Positions 11,233 through 30,782 of a DNA stretch of 51,513 nucleotides are shown piece after piece. Made by a program: the position numbers and the translations under genes. The DNA comes from an uncultured bacterium. GTDB lineage: Bacteria > Bacillota_I > Bacilli_A > RFN20 > CAG-826. A model generated the notes under the pieces. That model had not been told where the DNA came from, ran no database searches, and saw nothing but the letters and a program-made list of their open reading frames with translations. How positions within the stretch are numbered: position 1 is the stretch's first letter; every line of letters starts with the position of its first letter. The DNA lies in the NCBI GenBank assembly GCA_949285325.1, contig CASDYZ010000061.1:1-51513 (forward strand), written 5' to 3'.

Positions 11233-11271
11233 GCTTGTGGTAGAGAAGCGATTAGCTCAATTGACCACAGC
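11233..11271 (+). promoter_or_regulatory. Predicted stem-loop in the rplK leader
   Basis: GC-TGTGGT (with one bulged T) can pair with ACCACA-GC, and an inner GAG/CTC stem closes a second loop. It ends about 30 bases before the rplK start. The leader of rplK-rplA is where L1 binds for autoregulation in E. coli; a similar role here is inference. Confidence 0.35.
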
Positions 11272-11302
11272 ACTGACAAACTTAAAAAAGGAGGAAAGTC
11301 AC

Positions 11303-11716
11303 GTGAGTAAAAAAATCGCAAAAGTAGTGAAGATGGAACTCCCTGGTGGTGACGCAAAACCAGGTCCAAAACTCGCTTCCGCCAGCGTCAATATGGCAAA
11401 GTTTTGTACCGACTTTAACGCTAAGACGGCTGATAGACGTGGAGAAATAGTCCCAGTCATCATTACAGCTTACGAAGACAAATCGTTTGACTTCGTAATC
11501 AAAACATCCCCAGTTGCGGGATTGCTCTTAAAAGCAGCTGGTGTCAAAAAAGGTTCCGCCAATAGTAAGACAACTAAAGTCGGACACATTACTAGAGCAA
11601 AGCTTCAAGAGATTGCTGAATACAAAATGCCAGACCTCAACTGCAATGATATTGAGTCTGCAATGAAAATTATCGAAGGTAGTGCTCGCAATATGGGCAT
11701 CGTCATCGATGATTAG
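11303..11716 (+). CDS. rplK: 50S ribosomal protein L11
   Basis: A 137-residue L11, part of the GTPase-associated centre. It starts at GTG 11303, behind AAAGGAGGAAAG, so that the protein begins 'SKKIAKVVKMELPGG' like other L11 proteins. The frame is open a further 22 codons upstream, but those residues do not belong to the family. Motifs 'FCTDFNAKT' and 'VGHITRAKLQEIA' are present. It is followed after 18 bases by rplA. Confidence 0.95.
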   Translation: MSKKIAKVVKMELPGGDAKPGPKLASASVNMAKFCTDFNAKTADRRGEIVPVIITAYEDKSFDFVIKTSPVAGLLLKAAGVKKGSANSKTTKVGHITRAKLQEIAEYKMPDLNCNDIESAMKIIEGSARNMGIVIDD

Positions 11717-11734
11717 CGAGAGGAGAATAAATGC

Positions 11735-12415
11735 ATGAAAAGAAGTAAAAAATATCGTGCCGTCCTCGAACTAATTGAAAAGGGCAAAAGATACTCTTAT
11801 AACGAAGCTTGCGAATTAGTAAAAAAGACCTCAACTGTCAAATTTGATGCGACAGTGGATGTCTCAATCAAACTTAATGTCGATCCAAAACAAGCCGACC
11901 AACAAGTTAGAGGCACAGTCATACTCCCTCACGGAAATGGTAAAACTAAAAAAGTCTTAGCCATTACCGACAAGGTTGAAGATGCGACTAATGCCGGCGC
12001 AGACTTTGTCGGCGGTAAAGAAATGCTTGAAAAAATTCAAAAAGAAAACTGGTTTGATTTCGATGTTATCGTCGCTACACCAAACATGATGGGCGAGATT
12101 GGTAAATTAGGTCGTCTTTTAGGTCCTAAAGGTTTAATGCCAAATCCAAAGACTGGCACAGTTTCACCAGACATCGCTAAAGCGATCCATGAAATTAAAG
12201 CTGGTAAGGTCGAATATCGTGTCGATAAAGAAGCAAATATGCATGTCTCTATCGGACGTGTATCATTTGATACCGATAAACTTGTCGACAATTTAAAGAC
12301 ATTAATTGATGCGGTAGTTAGAGCAAGACCAGCCGCGGTTAAAGGTACATACATGAAAAATGCGGTCATCCATACTACTATGGGACCATCATTACCAATC
12401 GAAATCGATGGGTAA
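11735..12415 (+). CDS. rplA: 50S ribosomal protein L1
   Basis: A 226-residue L1 that binds the mobile 23S rRNA stalk near the E site. The conserved L1 signature '[19 protein letters not shown]' is complete, and '[12 protein letters not shown]' follows. GAGAGGAG lies nine bases before the ATG. In other bacteria L1 represses its own rplK-rplA mRNA. Confidence 0.96.
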
Positions 12416-12431
12416 AAATTAACTAAGATTT

Positions 12432-12519
12432 CAATATACCCTAGACAGCAACTGGCTAAAGAGCCTTAATCGTGTTGCCGAGGCATAGGAATAAACACCT
12501 ACTCGTATATTGGAGCCTC
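12432..12519 (+). ncRNA. Ribosomal protein L10 leader
   Basis: This cis-regulatory RNA sits in the rplA-rplJ gap, as in other Firmicutes. Visible pairings are a long-range 8-bp closing stem (12432-12439 with 12505-12512), CCTA/TAGG, GCAAC (12448-12452) with GTTGC (12474-12478) and a GGCT/AGCC hairpin. The conserved 'TTGCCGAGGC' lies at 12475-12484. GAGGC can instead pair with GCCTC (12515-12519). No T run follows, so control here may be translational or by a terminator that is not obvious. L10(L12)4 is the known ligand in the family. Confidence 0.8.
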
Positions 12520-12554
12520 AAAACAATTATTAAAGAAAAGGAGGTCAAGAACGA

Positions 12555-13040
12555 ATGAATCAAGAAGTCTTACAAGCAAAAGTTTCTACAGTCAACGAAA
12601 TTGTTGAAAAAGCTAAAGCTAATAAAACACTCATTATCGTTGAATATCGTGGACTTAGTGTCAATCAACTCGAACAAATAAGACGTGCTTTAAGAGCAGA
12701 AGATGCCTCATTAGCGGTCTATAAGAATTCACTCGTCGAAAGAGCGGTTAAAGAACTCAAATACGACGAACTCGAACCATTACTTACCGGCCCAAATGCA
12801 TTTGTCTTTTCTTTAGATGAACTCAAAGGTGCGAAAGTTGTCGCCAAATACGCGAAGAGATTTGGTGGGACACTAAACATCAAAGGTGCGATGATTGAAG
12901 GACAATTTGTCGATCCTAAAACATTAACAGCACTTTCAAAATTACCTGGAAAAGACGGACTTATTTCAATGTTCTTATCGTGCTTACAAGCACCTATCCG
13001 CTCCTTCGCTTGTGCAGTGCAAGCAGTCGCGGATAAATAG
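12555..13040 (+). CDS. rplJ: 50S ribosomal protein L10
   Basis: A 161-residue L10 that anchors L7/L12 dimers to the stalk base. Conserved 'VEYRGLSVNQLEQIRRALR' and 'YKNSLVERAV' regions identify it. The C-terminal helix, which binds L7/L12, is present. AAAAGGAGG precedes the ATG. It follows its own regulatory leader. Confidence 0.95.
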   Translation: MNQEVLQAKVSTVNEIVEKAKANKTLIIVEYRGLSVNQLEQIRRALRAEDASLAVYKNSLVERAVKELKYDELEPLLTGPNAFVFSLDELKGAKVVAKYAKRFGGTLNIKGAMIEGQFVDPKTLTALSKLPGKDGLISMFLSCLQAPIRSFACAVQAVADK

Positions 13041-13064
13041 CCAATTATTAGGAGGATTTAATTT

Positions 13065-13442
13065 ATGGCAAAATTAACAAAAGAAGAAATCGTTGCTTCT
13101 TTAAAAGAATACACAGTCGTTGAATTAAACGAACTTGTCAAATTAGTTGAAGAAGAATTTGGTGTTACCGCCGCCGCGCCTGTCGCGGTTGCAGCAGCGC
13201 CTGCTGAAGAAGAAAGCGCAGCGCAAGGACCAACCGAAGTCAACTTAATCTTAAAAGCAGTTGGTATGCAAAAAGTTCAAGTTATCAAAGCTGTTCAAGC
13301 TATTACTGGCTTAGGCTTAATGGACGCTAAAAAGTTAGTCGATTCAGTTCCTGCTACCATCAAAGAAAAAATTTCACCAGTCGAAGCAGAAGAACACAAG
13401 AAAGCTCTTGTTGCCGCTGGTGCTGAAGTTGAAATTAAATAG
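13065..13442 (+). CDS. rplL: 50S ribosomal protein L7/L12
   Basis: A 125-residue stalk protein that recruits translational GTPases. It has an N-terminal dimerisation helix, an Ala/Glu-rich hinge (about residues 38-52) and the C-terminal domain with '[24 protein letters not shown]'. TTAGGAGG precedes the ATG. Confidence 0.96.
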
Positions 13443-22830: not shown

Positions 22831-24510
22831 ATGAAAAAATCAAAATTGTCAATCCTAATAGCGTCTATCGCTCTATGTGGTGTACTCACCATGACAAGTT
22901 GTGGTGGTGGCGATGACACGACACCTGACATCGAAAGATTAGACCCATTTTTAATGACGAGCGATCTATATGGATTAAGCACTCAAGGTGAAGGCTTATT
23001 ATCTCTTCCATATTCAACTCTTGAAAAGACATATGAAAATGGTTCCGTTAGAGAAAGACACGCGATTACAGATGTTAGAGTACTTGTTGTACCTGTAGAT
23101 TTCACTGATTATCCAGCCAGTGAGACACCTTTTGGTGAAGAAGGGACAATAGAAAAAATTAACGACATTATGTTTGGAGAAGCAAGCGACACAGGATGGA
23201 ATTCACTCGCTTCATATTATGACTCTACAAGCTTTGGACAATGTAATGTCACTGGTGTTGTCACCGATTGGTACCACACCAATCAATCTGTTAGTGAATT
23301 TAAAAATTATGGGGCAGGATCAAATTACGCGACTCAGCAATTAGTCGCAGATTTGCAAGCATATTTCCCTCAAACATCAGAAGATGGTTCACTAAATATG
23401 GATGAATTTGACGCGAATGAAGATAATTATATCGACGCGTTAGTTATGCTCTATACTTGCCCACCATTAGTTAGAGATAGATTCAATCAACCTGTTGATG
23501 ATGAGCTTTATTGGGCGTACTGTTGGCAGTGGATGGGCGCGACATCAAGTAGCGACGATATTCAATTCTATAAATTCTTCTGGGCTTCAATTGAAACATT
23601 CTTTGAAGGTGGAGTTTGGGAAATAGATGAAGAAACCGGTGAAGAAGAATGGAGAGATTGGACCGAAGAAGAAATCACTACTGGCATCGCGACACTTGAC
23701 GCGCATACAATCATCCATGAATTTGGTCACATCTTAGGTTTACCAGATTATTACACATATGATGACACTGTCGGTGATTACCACCCATTAGGTGGACTTG
23801 ATATGATGGCCCATAACGTTGGAGACCACAATGCATTCTCAAAAGCTCTATATGGATGGACTACCCCTTACGTCGTCAGTGAAGAAAGCATGACAATCAC
23901 CATTAATTCCACGACGACGACAGGCGACTTCATCATGCTTCCTGTAGGAAGATGGGCATCGAACTCAACAACGATGTTAAGACAATACCTCACCATCGAA
24001 TTTATTACTCCTGACGGGGTGGCAGTTAATGATGGATTACACCAGTATAGAGGAGGATATCCACTTTATTACTCTGTTCCTGGCATTAGAGTAGAACACG
24101 TTGACGCACGTATGGGTATTAGAAGAAGTGATTCTCAAACCGGCGCTGTCGTGTTTGGCGGTTATACTTCTAACTATTCACCAGGTGCGGCTGGAGGATA
24201 TGTGAGCTTTGCGCACGATAACACTAAATCAAGAAGTGCGTTTGAAGATTATCGTTTAATTGAACTTGTCCCTGCGACAGGTGAATCAATTAAAACTTAC
24301 AACTGGGCAAATAACGACTGCTTATTCCAAGAAGGCGATAAATTCAATCTTGGTGAAGATGGTGTTTGGAACAATTATATGGTCAATTCAACCGATGGCA
24401 CTGTATCGACACCATTTGAATACGGATTTGAAGTTTTAGATATTGATGCGGAAGCAAAAACTGCGACAATCAAAATTACATATTTAAACGAAGATACTCA
24501 AACCGCATAA
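22831..24510 (+). CDS. M6-family metalloprotease lipoprotein
   Basis: A 559-residue surface lipoprotein. The lipobox 'LTMTSC' puts the lipidated Cys at residue 24, followed by Gly/Asp. The zinc motif HEFGHILGLPDYY lies near residue 295, and a downstream 'DMMAHNVGDHNAFSK' region carries the Met-turn, as in the immune-inhibitor-A-like M6 peptidases. A 'DANEDNYIDAL' stretch resembles a Ca2+-binding loop. It should degrade proteins outside the cell. AAAGGAGGAAAAGG precedes the ATG. It lies between rpoC and rpsL, with its own promoter and terminator. Confidence 0.85.
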   Translation: MKKSKLSILIASIALCGVLTMTSCGGGDDTTPDIERLDPFLMTSDLYGLSTQGEGLLSLPYSTLEKTYENGSVRERHAITDVRVLVVPVDFTDYPASETPFGEEGTIEKINDIMFGEASDTGWNSLASYYDSTSFGQCNVTGVVTDWYHTNQSVSEFKNYGAGSNYATQQLVADLQAYFPQTSEDGSLNMDEFDANEDNYIDALVMLYTCPPLVRDRFNQPVDDELYWAYCWQWMGATSSSDDIQFYKFFWASIETFFEGGVWEIDEETGEEEWRDWTEEEITTGIATLDAHTIIHEFGHILGLPDYYTYDDTVGDYHPLGGLDMMAHNVGDHNAFSKALYGWTTPYVVSEESMTITINSTTTTGDFIMLPVGRWASNSTTMLRQYLTIEFITPDGVAVNDGLHQYRGGYPLYYSVPGIRVEHVDARMGIRRSDSQTGAVVFGGYTSNYSPGAAGGYVSFAHDNTKSRSAFEDYRLIELVPATGESIKTYNWANNDCLFQEGDKFNLGEDGVWNNYMVNSTDGTVSTPFEYGFEVLDIDAEAKTATIKITYLNEDTQTA

Positions 24511-24659: not shown

Positions 24660-26231
24660 ATGAACAAAAAAATACTCAATTTTGTTTTTATATTCGCCTT
24701 ATTACTAACTGGATGCTCATACACATCGTTAGAGTTTGAACCATATACTTATGATGTAAACTATTCAAATATGAAAAAAGAAAGAATAGAAGACAATTAT
24801 TATTCTCTTGATGAATATAAATCACTTAAATATTTATCTCCTAGTGGTGAAAAATTGATTGAATCATATAGAGATTTATATTCTTCTAAAAGTGATAAAG
24901 ACACACGAGAGTTTTTAAATATGTCTTCACATGGTGAACAATATTTACTCGTCATACCGGTTTCATTTTTAGATTCTAATAAAAACGATCAAGATAAGAA
25001 AAAAATAATTATACAAAATGCCTTTTTTGGACAAAGTAGTAAGACAATTTATGAATCAGTCGCCTCATATTACGATAAATCTTCTTATGGCGATTTAAAG
25101 ATAAAAGGCGAAGTGGTGGACTTTATTGATTTCCCTTCTAAAGCAAGTGAACTTGAAAGTACATATGGTTCATATACACGTGCATCTAGATATGTCGTCG
25201 CTTGGCTTATTGATTATTTAAAAGAACAAAATTTTGATTTTAGCAAATATGATAACGATAAAGACGGGTATATCGACGGCGTTTATGTCATATATGATTA
25301 TCCTTATTCTGAAAAAAATGCCAACTCACTATTTTGGGCTTATACTGACCAGACGCAGAAAAATTTAAGTGGATTAAATAGCACTAAACCTTACGCTTCA
25401 TCATACTCATGGAGTTCATACGATTTTATTAAATATAACAATAATTTTGCTAATTCACATACATTGATACATGAAGTTGGTCATCTTTTTGGTTTAAGCG
25501 ATTATTACAATACGATTCCATCTGCTTTTTATCAACCGACTGGTTATATGGATATGATGGATTTTAATGTCGGAGATCACTCTGGTTTTTCTAAAATGAT
25601 TTTAGATTGGGTGACACCTAAGGTAGTTACTGGTGAAGGGGATATTACATTATCTCCATTTTATAATTCCGGTGAACTTATACTTATTCCTGCCGGAGAA
25701 TGGAATGGTACGCCTTACGATGAATATTTACTGTTAGAATATTTTGCTCCTCAAGGATTAAACGAAAAAGAACAAGCATTTACTTTTACTTATGTTGATA
25801 AAAATGGAGATGAGAAAGATTTTTCATATTTATCGTATTATGGCATTAAGGTATATCACGTCGACGCAAGACTTGCTTATTTTGAAAGAAAGACATCGTC
25901 TTATTACATTTGTCTATTAGAAGATGAAAACGCTATAGAAAAATTAAAAGATTATACCTCGTACTGCGTCAATTTTGCTTTTTCCAACAGCGTTGATAAT
26001 TTTCAAATCAACAATAAGCCAACTCTTCTTCATCTATTACAAAGTAGTGGAGAGAATACTTTTATGGAAGGTGAACCGATGAAAAATGAAGATTTATGGA
26101 TACTAGGTGATACTTTTGGTGTCGATACCTTTACCGACTTTACTTTCAACAACAATGAAAAATTACCATTCACTTTTGAAATAAGTAAATTTAATACTAA
26201 TCAAGCAACAATAACTTTTAAAATAAATTAA
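24660..26231 (+). CDS. Second M6-family metalloprotease lipoprotein
   Basis: A 523-residue paralogue of the preceding protein. The lipobox 'LLLTGC' gives lipidated Cys at residue 19. The zinc motif HEVGHLFGLSDYY and the following 'DMMDFNVGDHSGFSKM' match the first copy, as does a Ca-loop-like 'DNDKDGYIDGVYVIYDYP'. The divergence of the rest suggests different substrates. There is no Shine-Dalgarno before the ATG; a -10 box lies in its place. No clear terminator follows before the str promoter. Confidence 0.82.
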   Translation: MNKKILNFVFIFALLLTGCSYTSLEFEPYTYDVNYSNMKKERIEDNYYSLDEYKSLKYLSPSGEKLIESYRDLYSSKSDKDTREFLNMSSHGEQYLLVIPVSFLDSNKNDQDKKKIIIQNAFFGQSSKTIYESVASYYDKSSYGDLKIKGEVVDFIDFPSKASELESTYGSYTRASRYVVAWLIDYLKEQNFDFSKYDNDKDGYIDGVYVIYDYPYSEKNANSLFWAYTDQTQKNLSGLNSTKPYASSYSWSSYDFIKYNNNFANSHTLIHEVGHLFGLSDYYNTIPSAFYQPTGYMDMMDFNVGDHSGFSKMILDWVTPKVVTGEGDITLSPFYNSGELILIPAGEWNGTPYDEYLLLEYFAPQGLNEKEQAFTFTYVDKNGDEKDFSYLSYYGIKVYHVDARLAYFERKTSSYYICLLEDENAIEKLKDYTSYCVNFAFSNSVDNFQINNKPTLLHLLQSSGENTFMEGEPMKNEDLWILGDTFGVDTFTDFTFNNNEKLPFTFEISKFNTNQATITFKIN

Positions 26232-26321: not shown

Positions 26322-26350
26322 TTGCTATTAATTTGAAATTAAAATATATT
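26322..26350 (+). promoter_or_regulatory. Promoter of the str operon (rpsL-rpsG-fusA)
   Basis: TTGCTA (26322-26327) and TATATT (26345-26350) with a 17-base spacer. Predicted start near 26357, which gives a leader of about 100 bases. Confidence 0.7.
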
Positions 26351-26356
26351 TATAAA

Positions 26357-26455
26357 GCGTGTTGAGAAACACTAGGCCTACTATATAGGTCATTATTTTA
26401 AGGGAATTAATGACACACCCGGTCTTGTGAACACTCAACTTTGAAAGGAGAAATT
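26357..26455 (+). promoter_or_regulatory. Structured leader of rpsL with alternative pairings
   Basis: Local hairpins are GTGTT-GAGA-AACAC (26359-26372, GNRA-type loop), GCCTA/TAGGT (about 26376-26390) and GTCATTA/TAATGAC (26389-26414). The GTTGAG of the first hairpin (26361-26366) can instead pair with CTCAAC (26434-26439), just ahead of the AAGGAG ribosome-binding site (26445-26450). The two states exclude each other. Autogenous control of the str operon (S7 in E. coli) is known; a switch at this site is inference. Confidence 0.5.
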
Positions 26456-26872
26456 ATGCCAACGATTAATCAATTAGTTCGTGAAAGCCGTAAGAGTACT
26501 GTTTTTAAATCAAAAGCACCAGCTTTAGGCAAGAGATGGAATTCTTTAAAGAAAAAAGAAACAAATCAGCCAAGCGCACAAAAAAGAGGCGTCTGCACCC
26601 GTGTTGGTACAAAGACACCTAAAAAACCAAATTCAGCGCTTCGTAAATACGCTCGTGTGAGACTTTCAAACGGATATGAAGTTACTGCTTATATTGGTGG
26701 AGAAGGACACAATTTACAAGAGCACTCCACAGTTTTGATTCGTGGTGGCCGTGTTAAAGATTTACCAGGTGTTAGATACCATATCGTTAGAGGAACACTC
26801 GATTGCGCGGGTATCGAAGCGAGAAGACAAGGTAGAAGCTTATACGGCACAAAAAGACCAAAATCAAAATAA
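26456..26872 (+). CDS. rpsL: 30S ribosomal protein S12
   Basis: A 138-residue S12 of the decoding centre. The start at 26456 is chosen because AAGGAG lies just upstream and the protein then begins 'PTINQLVRE' like the family. '[17 protein letters not shown]' and '[16 protein letters not shown]' carry the loop lysines whose mutation gives streptomycin resistance; both are the sensitive type here. Confidence 0.97.
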
Positions 26873-26935: not shown

Positions 26936-27406
26936 ATGCCACGTAAGGGTAGCGTTATCAAACGCGATGTGTTACCAGATCCAATATACAACTCAAAATT
27001 GGTAACTAGATTAATTAATAAAATTATGCTCGATGGTAAAAAAGGCACCGCACAAACGATTTTGTACAACGCCTTTAATAAAATCGAAGCAAAAACTGGC
27101 AAACCAGCAATGGATGTATTCGCTACAGCGATCAACAACATCATGCCAGAAGTAGAATTAAAAGTTAGACGTATCGGTGCGACAAACTATCAAGTTCCAG
27201 TCGAAGTTAATAGAGATAGAAAAGTTACTTTAGGTCTTAGATGGCTAGTCAATTACGCAAGATTAAGAAATGAAAAAAGTATGGAAGATAGATTAGCGGC
27301 AGAAATTATCGACGCTGCAAACGGCACAGGTGCATCAGTTAAAAAGAGAGAAGATACACACAAGATGGCTGAAGCCAATAAAGCCTACTCTCATTATCGT
27401 TGGTAA
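26936..27406 (+). CDS. rpsG: 30S ribosomal protein S7
   Basis: A 156-residue S7 that nucleates assembly of the 30S head. '[19 protein letters not shown]' and '[11 protein letters not shown]' are signatures. ATAGGAGG precedes the ATG. In E. coli S7 regulates this operon. Confidence 0.97.
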
Positions 27407-27423
27407 TGGAGAAATAAATATTT

Positions 27424-29505
27424 ATGGCACGTGAATATGATTTAGCCCACACTCGTAATATTGGTATTATGGCCCATATCGACGCGGGCAAGACAACAAC
27501 TACTGAAAGAATTCTTTACTTCACTGGTAAGATTCATAAGATTGGTGAAGTGCATGAAGGGGCCGCTACGATGGACTGGATGGCCCAAGAACAAGAAAGA
27601 GGAATTACTATCACTTCTGCTGCGACAACTGCAGTGTGGAAGGGCAATAGAATCAACATCATCGACACTCCAGGGCACGTCGACTTCACAGTCGAAGTTG
27701 AAAGAAGCCTCCGTGTCTTAGATGGTGCGGTGACTGTTCTCGATGGTAAAAATGGTGTTGAACCACAAACTGAAACTGTTTGGAGACAAGGCTCAAAGTA
27801 CGGTGTTCCTAGAATCGTATTTGTCAATAAATTAGATGCGATAGGTGCAGACTTTGAGATGTGTGTTCGCTCACTCCACGAAAGATTAGGGGCAAATGCT
27901 GAAGCAGTTCAATATCCAATCGGCATCGAATCATCGCTAAAAGGATGTGTCGATATCATTGAACAAAAAGCTTGGATTTATACTTCCGACGTTCATGAAG
28001 AACCACATGAAGCACCTGTTCCTGATGATTTAAAAGACAAAGTCAATGAACTAAGAAACAAATTGTTTGAAGCTCTCGCTTCATTTGATGAAGAAATATT
28101 GATGATGGTGTTAGAAGGAGAAGAACCATCTATTGAACAAACTAAGGCTGCAATTCGTAAAGCTGTCTTGACTGGTGAATTCTATCCAGTGTTCTGTGGT
28201 TCTGCTTACAAAAACAAAAATATTCAATTGCTCCTCGATGGTGTCATCGATTATCTACCATCACCACTCGATATTCCTCCAGCAAAAGGAACAGATGAAG
28301 ATGGTAATGAAATCGTCTGTCATCCAGATGACAATGCTTCTCTTGGCTGTCTAGCGTTTAAGATTGCCACCGATCCTTTCATCGGTCGACTCGCTTATGT
28401 TAGAGTTTATTCTGGCACTCTTAAATCTGGTTCTTATGTCTTAAATTCAACTAAAGGTGTCAAAGAGAGAATCGCTCGTGTCGTCTTGATGCATTCTAAT
28501 CACCGTCAAGAAGTTGAAGAACTCCACGCTGGTGATATCGGCGCGGTAGTGGGACTTAAAAACACGACGACAGGTGATACCTTATGCGATGAAAAACATC
28601 CAGTTATCTTAGAGAAGATGGAATTCCCAGATCCAGTTATTGAAGAAGCGGTGGAACCAAAAACAAAAGCCGACCAAGAAAAAATGACTGCTTCTCTTAT
28701 GAAACTAGCGGAAGAAGACCCAACATTTAAAGTAAGAACTAATCCAGAGACTGGACAAACTATCATCGCTGGTGTTGGTGAACTACATCTCGACATCATC
28801 GTCGATAGATTAAAAAGAGAATTTAATGTTCAAGTCAATGTCGGTGCCCCACAAGTAGAATACCGTGAGACTATCAAGTCGAGAGCGGAATGTGAAGGTA
28901 AATACATACGTCAATCTGGTGGTAGAGGTCAATATGGTCACGTATGGATTAGATTTGAACCAAACCCAGGCAAAGGATTTGAATTTGTCGATGCGGTAGT
29001 GGGTGGCTCAGTTCCAAAAGAATATATCAAACCAACCGCTGACGGATTAAAAGATGCTTTAGCAAGAGGTATGATTGCCGGTTATCAAGTGATGGATATA
29101 AAAGCGACTTTATTCGATGGTAGCTATCACGAAGTCGACTCATCCGAAGCTGCATATAAGATTGCTGCCTCAATGGCTCTTAAAGAGGCTGCTAAAAAAT
29201 GTAATCCTGTCATTTTAGAGCCAATTATGAAAATTGAAGTAACCGTCCCAGAACAATATTATGGTGATGTCGTCGGTGACATCGCTAGACGTAGAGGTAG
29301 TGTGACTGGTGAAAGTCAAAGGGCTAACGCTAAAATTATTGAAGCGGAAGTGCCTCTATCAGAAATGTTTGGATACGTTACTGATTTAAGAAGCATGACT
29401 CAAGGTCGAGGCAATTATGTAATGCAGTTCGACCACTATGGAGAATGCCCAAGATTCGTCCAAGATGAGATTATTAAAAAATCTGGGATGAATAATGCTC
29501 GATAA
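27424..29505 (+). CDS. fusA: Elongation factor G
   Basis: A 693-residue translocation GTPase of full length. G1 'AHIDAGKTT', G3 'DTPGHVDF' and G4 'NKLD' are intact, and domain IV has '[12 protein letters not shown]'. It follows rpsG by 17 bases with a modest GGAG. After the stop, a hairpin without a T run leads into the tuf promoter. Confidence 0.97.
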
Positions 29506-29597: not shown

Positions 29598-30782
29598 ATG
29601 GCAAAAGAAAAGTTTGACAGAAGTAAACCACACGTTAACATTGGTACCATTGGTCACGTCGACCACGGTAAAACAACCTTAACTGCGGCTATCACTTCCG
29701 TCTTAGCAAAACAAGGTGGGGCTGTTAAGACCGATTACGCACAAATCGACTCAGCACCAGAAGAAAAAGCACGTGGTATTACAATTAATACTGCACACAT
29801 TGAGTATCAAACTGCAAACCGCCACTATGCACACGTTGACTGCCCAGGGCACGCTGACTATGTTAAGAATATGATTACAGGTGCTGCCCAAATGGATGGT
29901 GCAATTCTCGTCGTGGCGGGCACTGATGGCGTCATGCCACAAACTCGTGAACACATCTTACTTGCTCGTCAAGTTGGTGTTCCTTACATCGTTGTCTTTA
30001 TCAACAAGACTGACTTAGTTGACGATCCAGAACTTCTCGACTTAGTTGAAATGGATGTCCGTGATTTACTTTCAAGCTACGGCTTCCCAGGCGATGAAGT
30101 ACCAGTCATTAGAGGTAGTGCTAGATTAGCACTCGAAGGCGATCCAGCTGAAGAAAAACACATTCTCGAACTCATGGATGCTTGCGATAAATATATCCCA
30201 GCTCCACAAAGAGATGTCGACAAACCATTCTTGCTTGCAATCGAAGACGTCATGACTATCTCAGGTCGTGGTACAGTTGTTACCGGCCGTGTTGAAAGAG
30301 GTAGCGCCAAACTCGGTGATGAAGTTGAAATCGTCGGTATCCACGACACTTTAAAATCAGTTATCACTGGTCTTGAATCATTTAGAAAGATTCTCGACAG
30401 CGCGATGGCGGGGGACAACGTCGGTGTCTTGTTACGTGGTATTAACCGCGACCAAGTCCAACGTGGTCAAGTCCTTGCAAAACCAGGCAGTGTTACCCCA
30501 CACACCAAATTCAAAGCGTCAGTCTACGTATTAACTAAAGAAGAAGGTGGCCGTCATACTGCTTTCTTAAGCAACTACCGTCCACAATTCTATTTCCGTA
30601 CAACTGATATTACTGGTGTCATTACTCTTCCTGCGGGAACTGACATGGTTATGCCAGGCGATAACGTCGAATTAACCGTTGAATTAATTCACCCAATCGC
30701 TATTGAAAAAGGTACCAAATTCTCCATCCGTGAAGGTGGCCGTACAGTCGGTGCTGGTACAGTTAACGAAATCTTAAAATAA
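29598..30782 (+). CDS. tuf: Elongation factor Tu
   Basis: A 394-residue EF-Tu that delivers aminoacyl-tRNA to the ribosome. G1 'GHVDHGKTT', G3 'DCPGHADY' and G4 'NKTD' are intact, and all three domains are full length. GAAAGGAG precedes the ATG. It has its own extended -10 promoter and a clear terminator, so it can be expressed apart from fusA. Confidence 0.98.

Follow-up and report, generated by a model that had tools for sequence, protein, structure and literature searches.

Results

The str locus and the region upstream of rpsL

The window, by which we mean the whole stretch of 51,513 nucleotides analysed here, belongs to a 1.15-Mb draft genome that is 97.8% complete. Its forward strand carries, in this order, rpsL (uS12; 26456-26872), rpsG (uS7; 26936-27406), fusA (EF-G; 27424-29505) and tuf (EF-Tu; 29598-30782). 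Among named public loci, the closest counterparts of the encoded S12 are those of Coprobacillus sp. and an uncultured bacterium, followed by those of Erysipelotrichaceae and Bacillus; on this basis, the source most likely falls within Bacilli, with an RF39-like position as a tentative finer assignment. The interval between rpoC and rpsL contains a peptidase M6-like gene (22831-24510) and an open reading frame of 523 amino acids without a Pfam match (24660-26231). The rplK, rplA, rplJ and rplL genes all lie in the window as well (11237-13442); despite their presence, the window has no Rfam match to an L10 leader family at the gathering score.

The leader RNA that precedes rpsL occupies approximately positions 26357 to 26455 of the forward strand, on which all its parts described below also lie, and includes a Shine-Dalgarno sequence, AAAGGAG, that we located by eye at 26444-26450. 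A promoter-like sequence, TTGCTA-17-TATATT, lies at 26322-26350. It is weak when taken alone, and a promoter scan performed no better than chance, returning 2 promoter-like sites where 2.5 were expected. Therefore, the promoter assignment relies on a comparison of relatives by eye, many of which carry an AT-rich TATATTATAT-like stretch directly 5' of GCGUGUG. From this we infer that transcription starts near 26357.

Predicted folds of the leader

Folding of the window leader predicts two sets of structures. The early state consists of P0, a local hairpin of the form GUGUU-GAGA-AACAC (26359-26372; arms 26359-26363 and 26368-26372), which is the GNRA hairpin that the preliminary description had proposed, and of H1, a terminator-like hairpin of the form GGCCUA-CUAUA-UAGGUC (26375-26391). 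H1 is followed directly by a U-rich tract, AUUAUUUU (26392-26399), and together they form the sole terminator-like site in 351 bases, where 0.1 would be expected from shuffled sequences. H1 is short, with 6 base pairs of which 3 are GC, and its U-tract is interrupted.

The second set comprises three helices. P1 pairs GUUGAG (26361-26366) with CUCAAC (26434-26439) across 67 nucleotides, and the CUCAAC strand ends 4 nucleotides 5' of the Shine-Dalgarno sequence; both motifs and their proximity to the ribosome-binding site had been described correctly. P2 pairs CAC (26370-26372) and AGGCC (26374-26378) with GGUCU (26421-26425) and GUG (26427-26429). P3, also present as described, pairs GUCAUUA (26389-26395) with UAAUGAC (26408-26414), and it shares positions 26389-26391 with H1. 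In the minimum free energy (MFE) fold, P1, P2 and P3 are nested one within another. Explicit energy calculations gave -20.6 kcal/mol for the nested P1+P2+P3 fold and -11.3 kcal/mol for the early P0+H1 state, so that the nested fold lies 9.3 kcal/mol below the H1 state. The multibranch layout that had been envisaged, with P1, P3 and a small hairpin, reaches only -12.0 kcal/mol, which is 8.6 kcal/mol worse than the nested fold. When folding was followed on a growing transcript, P0 appeared before H1, which persisted up to approximately 60 nucleotides, and P3, P2 and P1 formed at 65, 75 and 90 nucleotides, respectively.

The single-sequence fold is unremarkable relative to shuffled sequences (z = -1.43; 18 of 200 shuffles were as good). 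With so slight a difference from chance, the fold could not be established from the window sequence by itself. MFE folds of the 44 leaders used in the swap test below contain P1 in 34 cases, P2 in 32, P3 in 31, H1 in 17 and H2, a weak candidate hairpin described below, in 1.

Covariation across relatives

We gathered 219 rpsL leaders (211 distinct), namely 130 distinct leaders from the same family or order, 80 loci from named genomes and the window itself. In 61 leaders of the family or order, the window included, GACC or GGCC is separated by a short loop from GGUC, GGCC or GGU, after which comes a U-rich tract, all 5' of a conserved element that is described below. We took 44 of these 61, all less than 85% similar to one another, into an alignment-free swap test, in which the duplex energy of true partner segments is compared with that of partners dealt among the sequences. 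RNAalifold predicted zero pairs on a MAFFT alignment, and we relied on the swap test instead.

In the 44 leaders, the swap z was -7.9 for P3, -6.1 for P2, -3.4 for H1, -2.9 for P1 and a weak -2.2 for P0, while four control pairs gave -0.2, -0.2, -1.4 and -1.6. The last of these controls (S3:S5) is one of three that gave a score of their own, the others being E-6:E+31 (z = -3.15) and the d=5 arm in named Bacilli (z = -3.4). H2 gave no swap signal in the same 44 leaders (z = -0.5). Because the segments had initially been picked by eye from the same sequences, we also computed a map of 156 window pairs, in which partners are not chosen, and repeated the swap tests with the window left out. The map has a mean z of -0.87 and a standard deviation of 1.6, and its top cells correspond to P3 (-7.0) and P2 (-6.3 and -5.7), with P1 lower (-4.5). 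At strict filters and with the window left out, z was -5.5 (n = 27) and -3.0 (n = 13) for P3, -4.7 and -2.9 for P2, and -2.9 and -2.2 for H1 at the same sample sizes. Pairs of P2 that have changed and yet are kept include CACGUU/AACGUG (L006), CACGGU/ACCGUG (L172) and CUAGACC/GGUCUAG (L126).

P1 behaves differently from the other helices. When strict filters are applied to the full set it is unsupported, with z = -1.45 (n = 27) and +1.08 (n = 13). However, in the 44 of the 61 leaders whose transcript starts with GCGUG or a near variant, z is -5.6 (n = 30), -3.1 (n = 15) and -2.7 (n = 9), and leaving out the window changes these values to -5.3, -2.6 and -1.9. The GUUGAG/CUCAAC helix is thus a trait of one subclade; P2 and P3 have a broader distribution. 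Covariation among relatives had been named as the check on a two-state leader before rpsL, and its lack in the stems as grounds for discarding the idea. The two-state proposal survives this check, since partner swaps weaken P2, P3 and H1; the pairing on which it centred holds within the GCGUG-start subclade but not over the whole set, and its layout is nested rather than multibranch. The comparison shows P2 and P3, and P1 in the subclade, as predicted alternatives that use the arms of H1. We conclude that the leader is a real, covarying RNA with a probable regulatory role.

A conserved element in Bacilli

P2, H1 and a conserved element at 26410-26435 were all absent from the preliminary description. 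The core of this element is GA-N-ACACC-N-GG-N4-GUG (26412-26429), and we characterized it with a weight matrix trained on the gathered leaders (motif WUGANACACCNGGNNNNGUG) and with a covariance model. Element scores are bimodal, and shuffled leaders have a median of -13.7 and a maximum of 13.4 bits. The element is present in 125 of the 130 family or order leaders and in 36 of the 80 named loci, 35 of them by the first scan and one (L078) with the element 159 nucleotides 5' of the ATG, outside the range of that scan. The named loci that bear it are mostly Bacilli (Bacillus, Staphylococcus, Paenibacillus, Enterococcus, Aerococcus, Erysipelotrichaceae and others), with a few metagenome-assembled genomes labelled otherwise; in B. 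subtilis, the GG of the element lies within ACACCNGG. Among the 80 named loci, the element is absent from both Streptococcus loci, one Anaeroplasmataceae locus and the clostridial loci. By eye, it also seems to have been lost from three leaders of a single genus (L140, L145 and L176), though their close relatives keep it. Enterococcus and Streptococcus rpsL leaders (L045 and L057) share an upstream block, ACGTGCTGAC, followed by AAGTACA or AAAGTACACA; this block is perhaps a separate Lactobacillales leader element.

The covariance model, which covers 26 positions, matches 119 of 247 genomes of the class at E <= 0.01 and strict filters. The true number is probably higher, because the window itself barely passes (E = 0.0087). 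The matches number 120, of which 90 were located; 86 of these lie directly upstream of rpsL on the same strand and 4 do not. Off-target matches, which we take to be chance, fall in lepA-like codons, in the codons of another gene (phosphatidyltransferase-like by eye) and at two places on the opposite strand upstream of rpsL. The distance from the end of the element to the ATG ranges from 11 to 51 nucleotides, with a median of 20 (77 measured cases). In several named loci, the second-best match to the element falls in the G3 GTPase codons (I-D-T-P-G-H-V-D) of fusA, and once in those of a lepA-like gene. The corresponding site in the fusA gene of the window is at 27662-27687, and the family consensus of the element, GATACACCCGGTATTGTGGAC, is two bases off the G3-codon reading. 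This likeness is probably fortuitous and liable to yield false positives.

While the conservation of the element's sequence is firm in the leaders compared, its fold is weak, and H2, a hairpin of CAC (26416-26418) and GUG (26427-26429) within it, is therefore only possible. In a slide test, the four-pair stem of H2 closes in 92.5% of cells, compared with at most 67.9% when slid. One of the four pairs, the outermost, changes on both sides (A-U in 32, C-G in 19, U-G in 1 and other, unpaired combinations in 18 of 70 sequences). Leaders of another genus (g18; L141, L144 and related) contain a strong alternative hairpin, CCCGGUG/CACCGGG, for example CCCCGGTGGCGATACACCGGG, which overlaps the element; it would exclude H2 and is possibly another switch. 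The element also resembles the S7-site stretch of 16S rRNA (GAAUAC..CCCGGG), and mimicry of the rRNA site is a common though not universal trait of autoregulatory r-protein leaders. When four consensus strings were aligned locally to six loci with partial 16S sequence, no match survived the 24 comparisons, and mimicry does not enter our model; the best alignment was reached by 3 of 200 shuffles, and the reverse complement of that match looks 16S-like by eye.

Spacing between the terminator-like hairpin and the element

A hairpin with a U-tract lies 5' of the element in 27 of 35 element-bearing named leaders (3.5 expected) and in 66 of 126 family or order leaders (16.8 expected). Such a terminator-like hairpin is also found in 19 of 45 named leaders that lack the element (5.3 expected), which means that H1 does not by itself single out leaders with the element. 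In 23 of the 35 named leaders and 52 of the 126 family or order leaders, the end of the most stable stem is 16 to 19 nucleotides 5' of the element. In the named set, the mean stem energy plotted by distance peaks at 18 nucleotides with -6.7 kcal/mol and is about -1 far off; the gap between H1 and the element in the window is 18 nucleotides. The linker is U-rich at positions -17 to -9 relative to the element. The sequence of the hairpin varies by genus, and its arms covary in named Bacilli (H1 swap z = -8.5; n = 21).

Two further candidates in this region were rejected. The 17-nucleotide linker does not contain a hairpin of its own, its fold energy being no better than that of shuffled linkers (-0.16 versus -0.09 and -0.18 versus -0.19). 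A leader peptide was considered since the Bacillus form begins AUG AAC CAC, but by eye the AUG is not kept, being replaced by ACG, AAG, TTA and others.

Discussion

A model for the leader and its alternatives

We judge it somewhat more probable than its negation that the leader is an autoregulatory cis-acting RNA of the str operon (rpsL-rpsG-fusA-tuf), in which H1, the element and refolding would act jointly. Comparative sequence analysis supports a nascent RNA that can form H1 with its U-tract, after P0 in the predicted folding order, and, in the clade of the window, RNA that extends past H1 and can refold into the nested P1-P2-P3 structure and so take H1 apart. In our proposal, a part of the polymerases may stop at H1. 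On read-through RNA, an excess of an r-protein of the operon, S7 or S12, may bind the conserved element and block 30S loading at the adjacent Shine-Dalgarno sequence, with P1-P2-P3 as the putative competing, ligand-free fold. Alternatives to the terminator do exist in P0 and P1-P3, but the element and the 3' strands of P2 and P3 are transcribed after H1. They therefore cannot be ordinary antiterminators, and their effect should be on the stability of the mRNA or on its translation. As candidate ligand, S7 is more likely than S12, and this only because of the precedent in E. coli, where the uS7 operator is part of r-protein autoregulation (PMC10931766, available text).

The same evidence has rival readings. 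H1 could be the only regulatory part, acting through pausing, NusA/NusG or a bound r-protein, with the element devoted to something else, for example ribosome standby or the stability of the mRNA, and with the long-range helices being incidental. The wide occurrence of H1 with a U-tract and the earlier prediction of rpsL attenuators (PMC2965389, available text) speak for such a plain attenuator. Against it stand the covariation of P2 and P3 in the family, which is stronger than that of H1, and the conservation of the element, which likewise exceeds that of H1; we consider it unlikely. The converse, that H1 is too weak to terminate and that ribosome loading is governed by P1-P2-P3 or the element, tuned by S7, S12 or intrinsic folding alone, would fit the shortness of H1 and the interruption of its U-tract in the window, the position of the element close to the ATG and the low energy of the nested fold relative to the H1 state. 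It does not account for the excess over expectation of U-tracts directly 3' of the hairpin in named leaders, which makes a purely translational leader rather improbable in our estimation.

Readings in which the RNA plays no part are the least probable. At the DNA level the element is likewise an inverted repeat, for example an imperfect palindrome ACAC-N8-GTGT that a regulator might bind downstream of the promoter, and the weakness of its hairpin would suit a DNA site. Its place between hairpin plus U-tract and Shine-Dalgarno sequence, its near-constant spacing to an RNA hairpin and the covariation, as RNA, of its 3' part with an upstream strand (P2) in the family nevertheless make a DNA site very improbable. 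Slightly less credible again is the notion that these are AT-rich leaders with chance complementarity and no function; the unexceptional single-sequence z and the negative RNAalifold result would agree with it, but the swap tests and the class-wide conservation of the element do not.

Relation to known leaders

The autoregulatory reading agrees with the general pattern of r-protein leaders in that a conserved RNA structure precedes an r-protein operon. The S12-leader shape had been thought to belong to no described family in Firmicutes, and this stands insofar as Rfam 15 yields no leader match, either in the window, where a search at gathering scores finds just a tRNA at another place, or in 12 rpsL loci at E <= 5, and a conserved str or rpsL leader family of this kind was not found in the open-licence literature; "undescribed" is used here in that sense of the Bacilli leader. 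It has to be qualified because Naville and Gautheret predicted rpsL attenuators in 2010. The available text of their paper (PMC2965389) describes multiform rpsL attenuators in Listeria, Xanthomonas, Pseudomonas and Rickettsia and fusA attenuators in streptococci, refers to predictions for 24 species, gives a Listeria example with proposed antiterminators and states that no feature of sequence or structure was found to be globally conserved among rpsL attenuators. Like these, the window feature lies in the 5' leader of rpsL and combines a terminator hairpin with a T-stretch (26375-26391 plus ATTATTTT) and proposed alternative structures. Unlike them, as far as that text describes them, it has a conserved downstream element that is common to Bacilli, often at near-constant spacing, and in the clade of the window the terminator is predicted to be succeeded by three long-range helices.

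Other known systems share fewer traits with it. The E. coli uS7 operator belongs to the same operon and provides a precedent for an r-protein ligand; unlike the window feature, which precedes rpsL, it lies in the rpsL-rpsG intercistronic region (PMC10931766), and no sequence relation between the two emerged in our analysis. The Candidatus Pelagibacter rpsL motif, which the available text of PMC2704228 places only in SAR11 and marine metagenomes, is likewise a structured RNA before rpsL, but its bulged P1 and three-stem junction differ from a nested P1-P2-P3 fold that has no Rfam match. Leaders named for Firmicutes in the available part of PMC7247131 include those of S4, S10, L13, L19, L20 and L31; these resemble the window leader as clade-limited cis-acting RNAs before r-protein genes, and among the 20 new leaders in Table 1 of that paper there is no S12, S7 or str-operon leader. 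The accessible text of PMC6429828 does not mention rpsL.

Significance

The element shared across Bacilli is a more interesting part of this leader than the two-state layout that was originally proposed. Tentatively, and with the balance of our judgement slightly against it, we suggest that the majority of Bacilli, uncultured lineages with small genomes as well as Bacillus and Staphylococcus, have in common an undescribed str leader consisting of a variable terminator hairpin, a near-fixed U-rich linker of 17 to 18 nucleotides and a putative S7- or S12-binding element by the Shine-Dalgarno sequence, to which the clade of the window would add a switch that dismantles the terminator. The element would supply, for Bacilli, a shared feature of the sort that was lacking in the 2010 survey of rpsL attenuators. 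It offers a defined target of 26 nucleotides, with relatives in Bacillus, for studying the regulation in Gram-positive bacteria of an operon whose products are S12, S7, EF-G and EF-Tu. If the suggestion is true, a leader shared by Bacilli joins premature termination and translational repression in one RNA.
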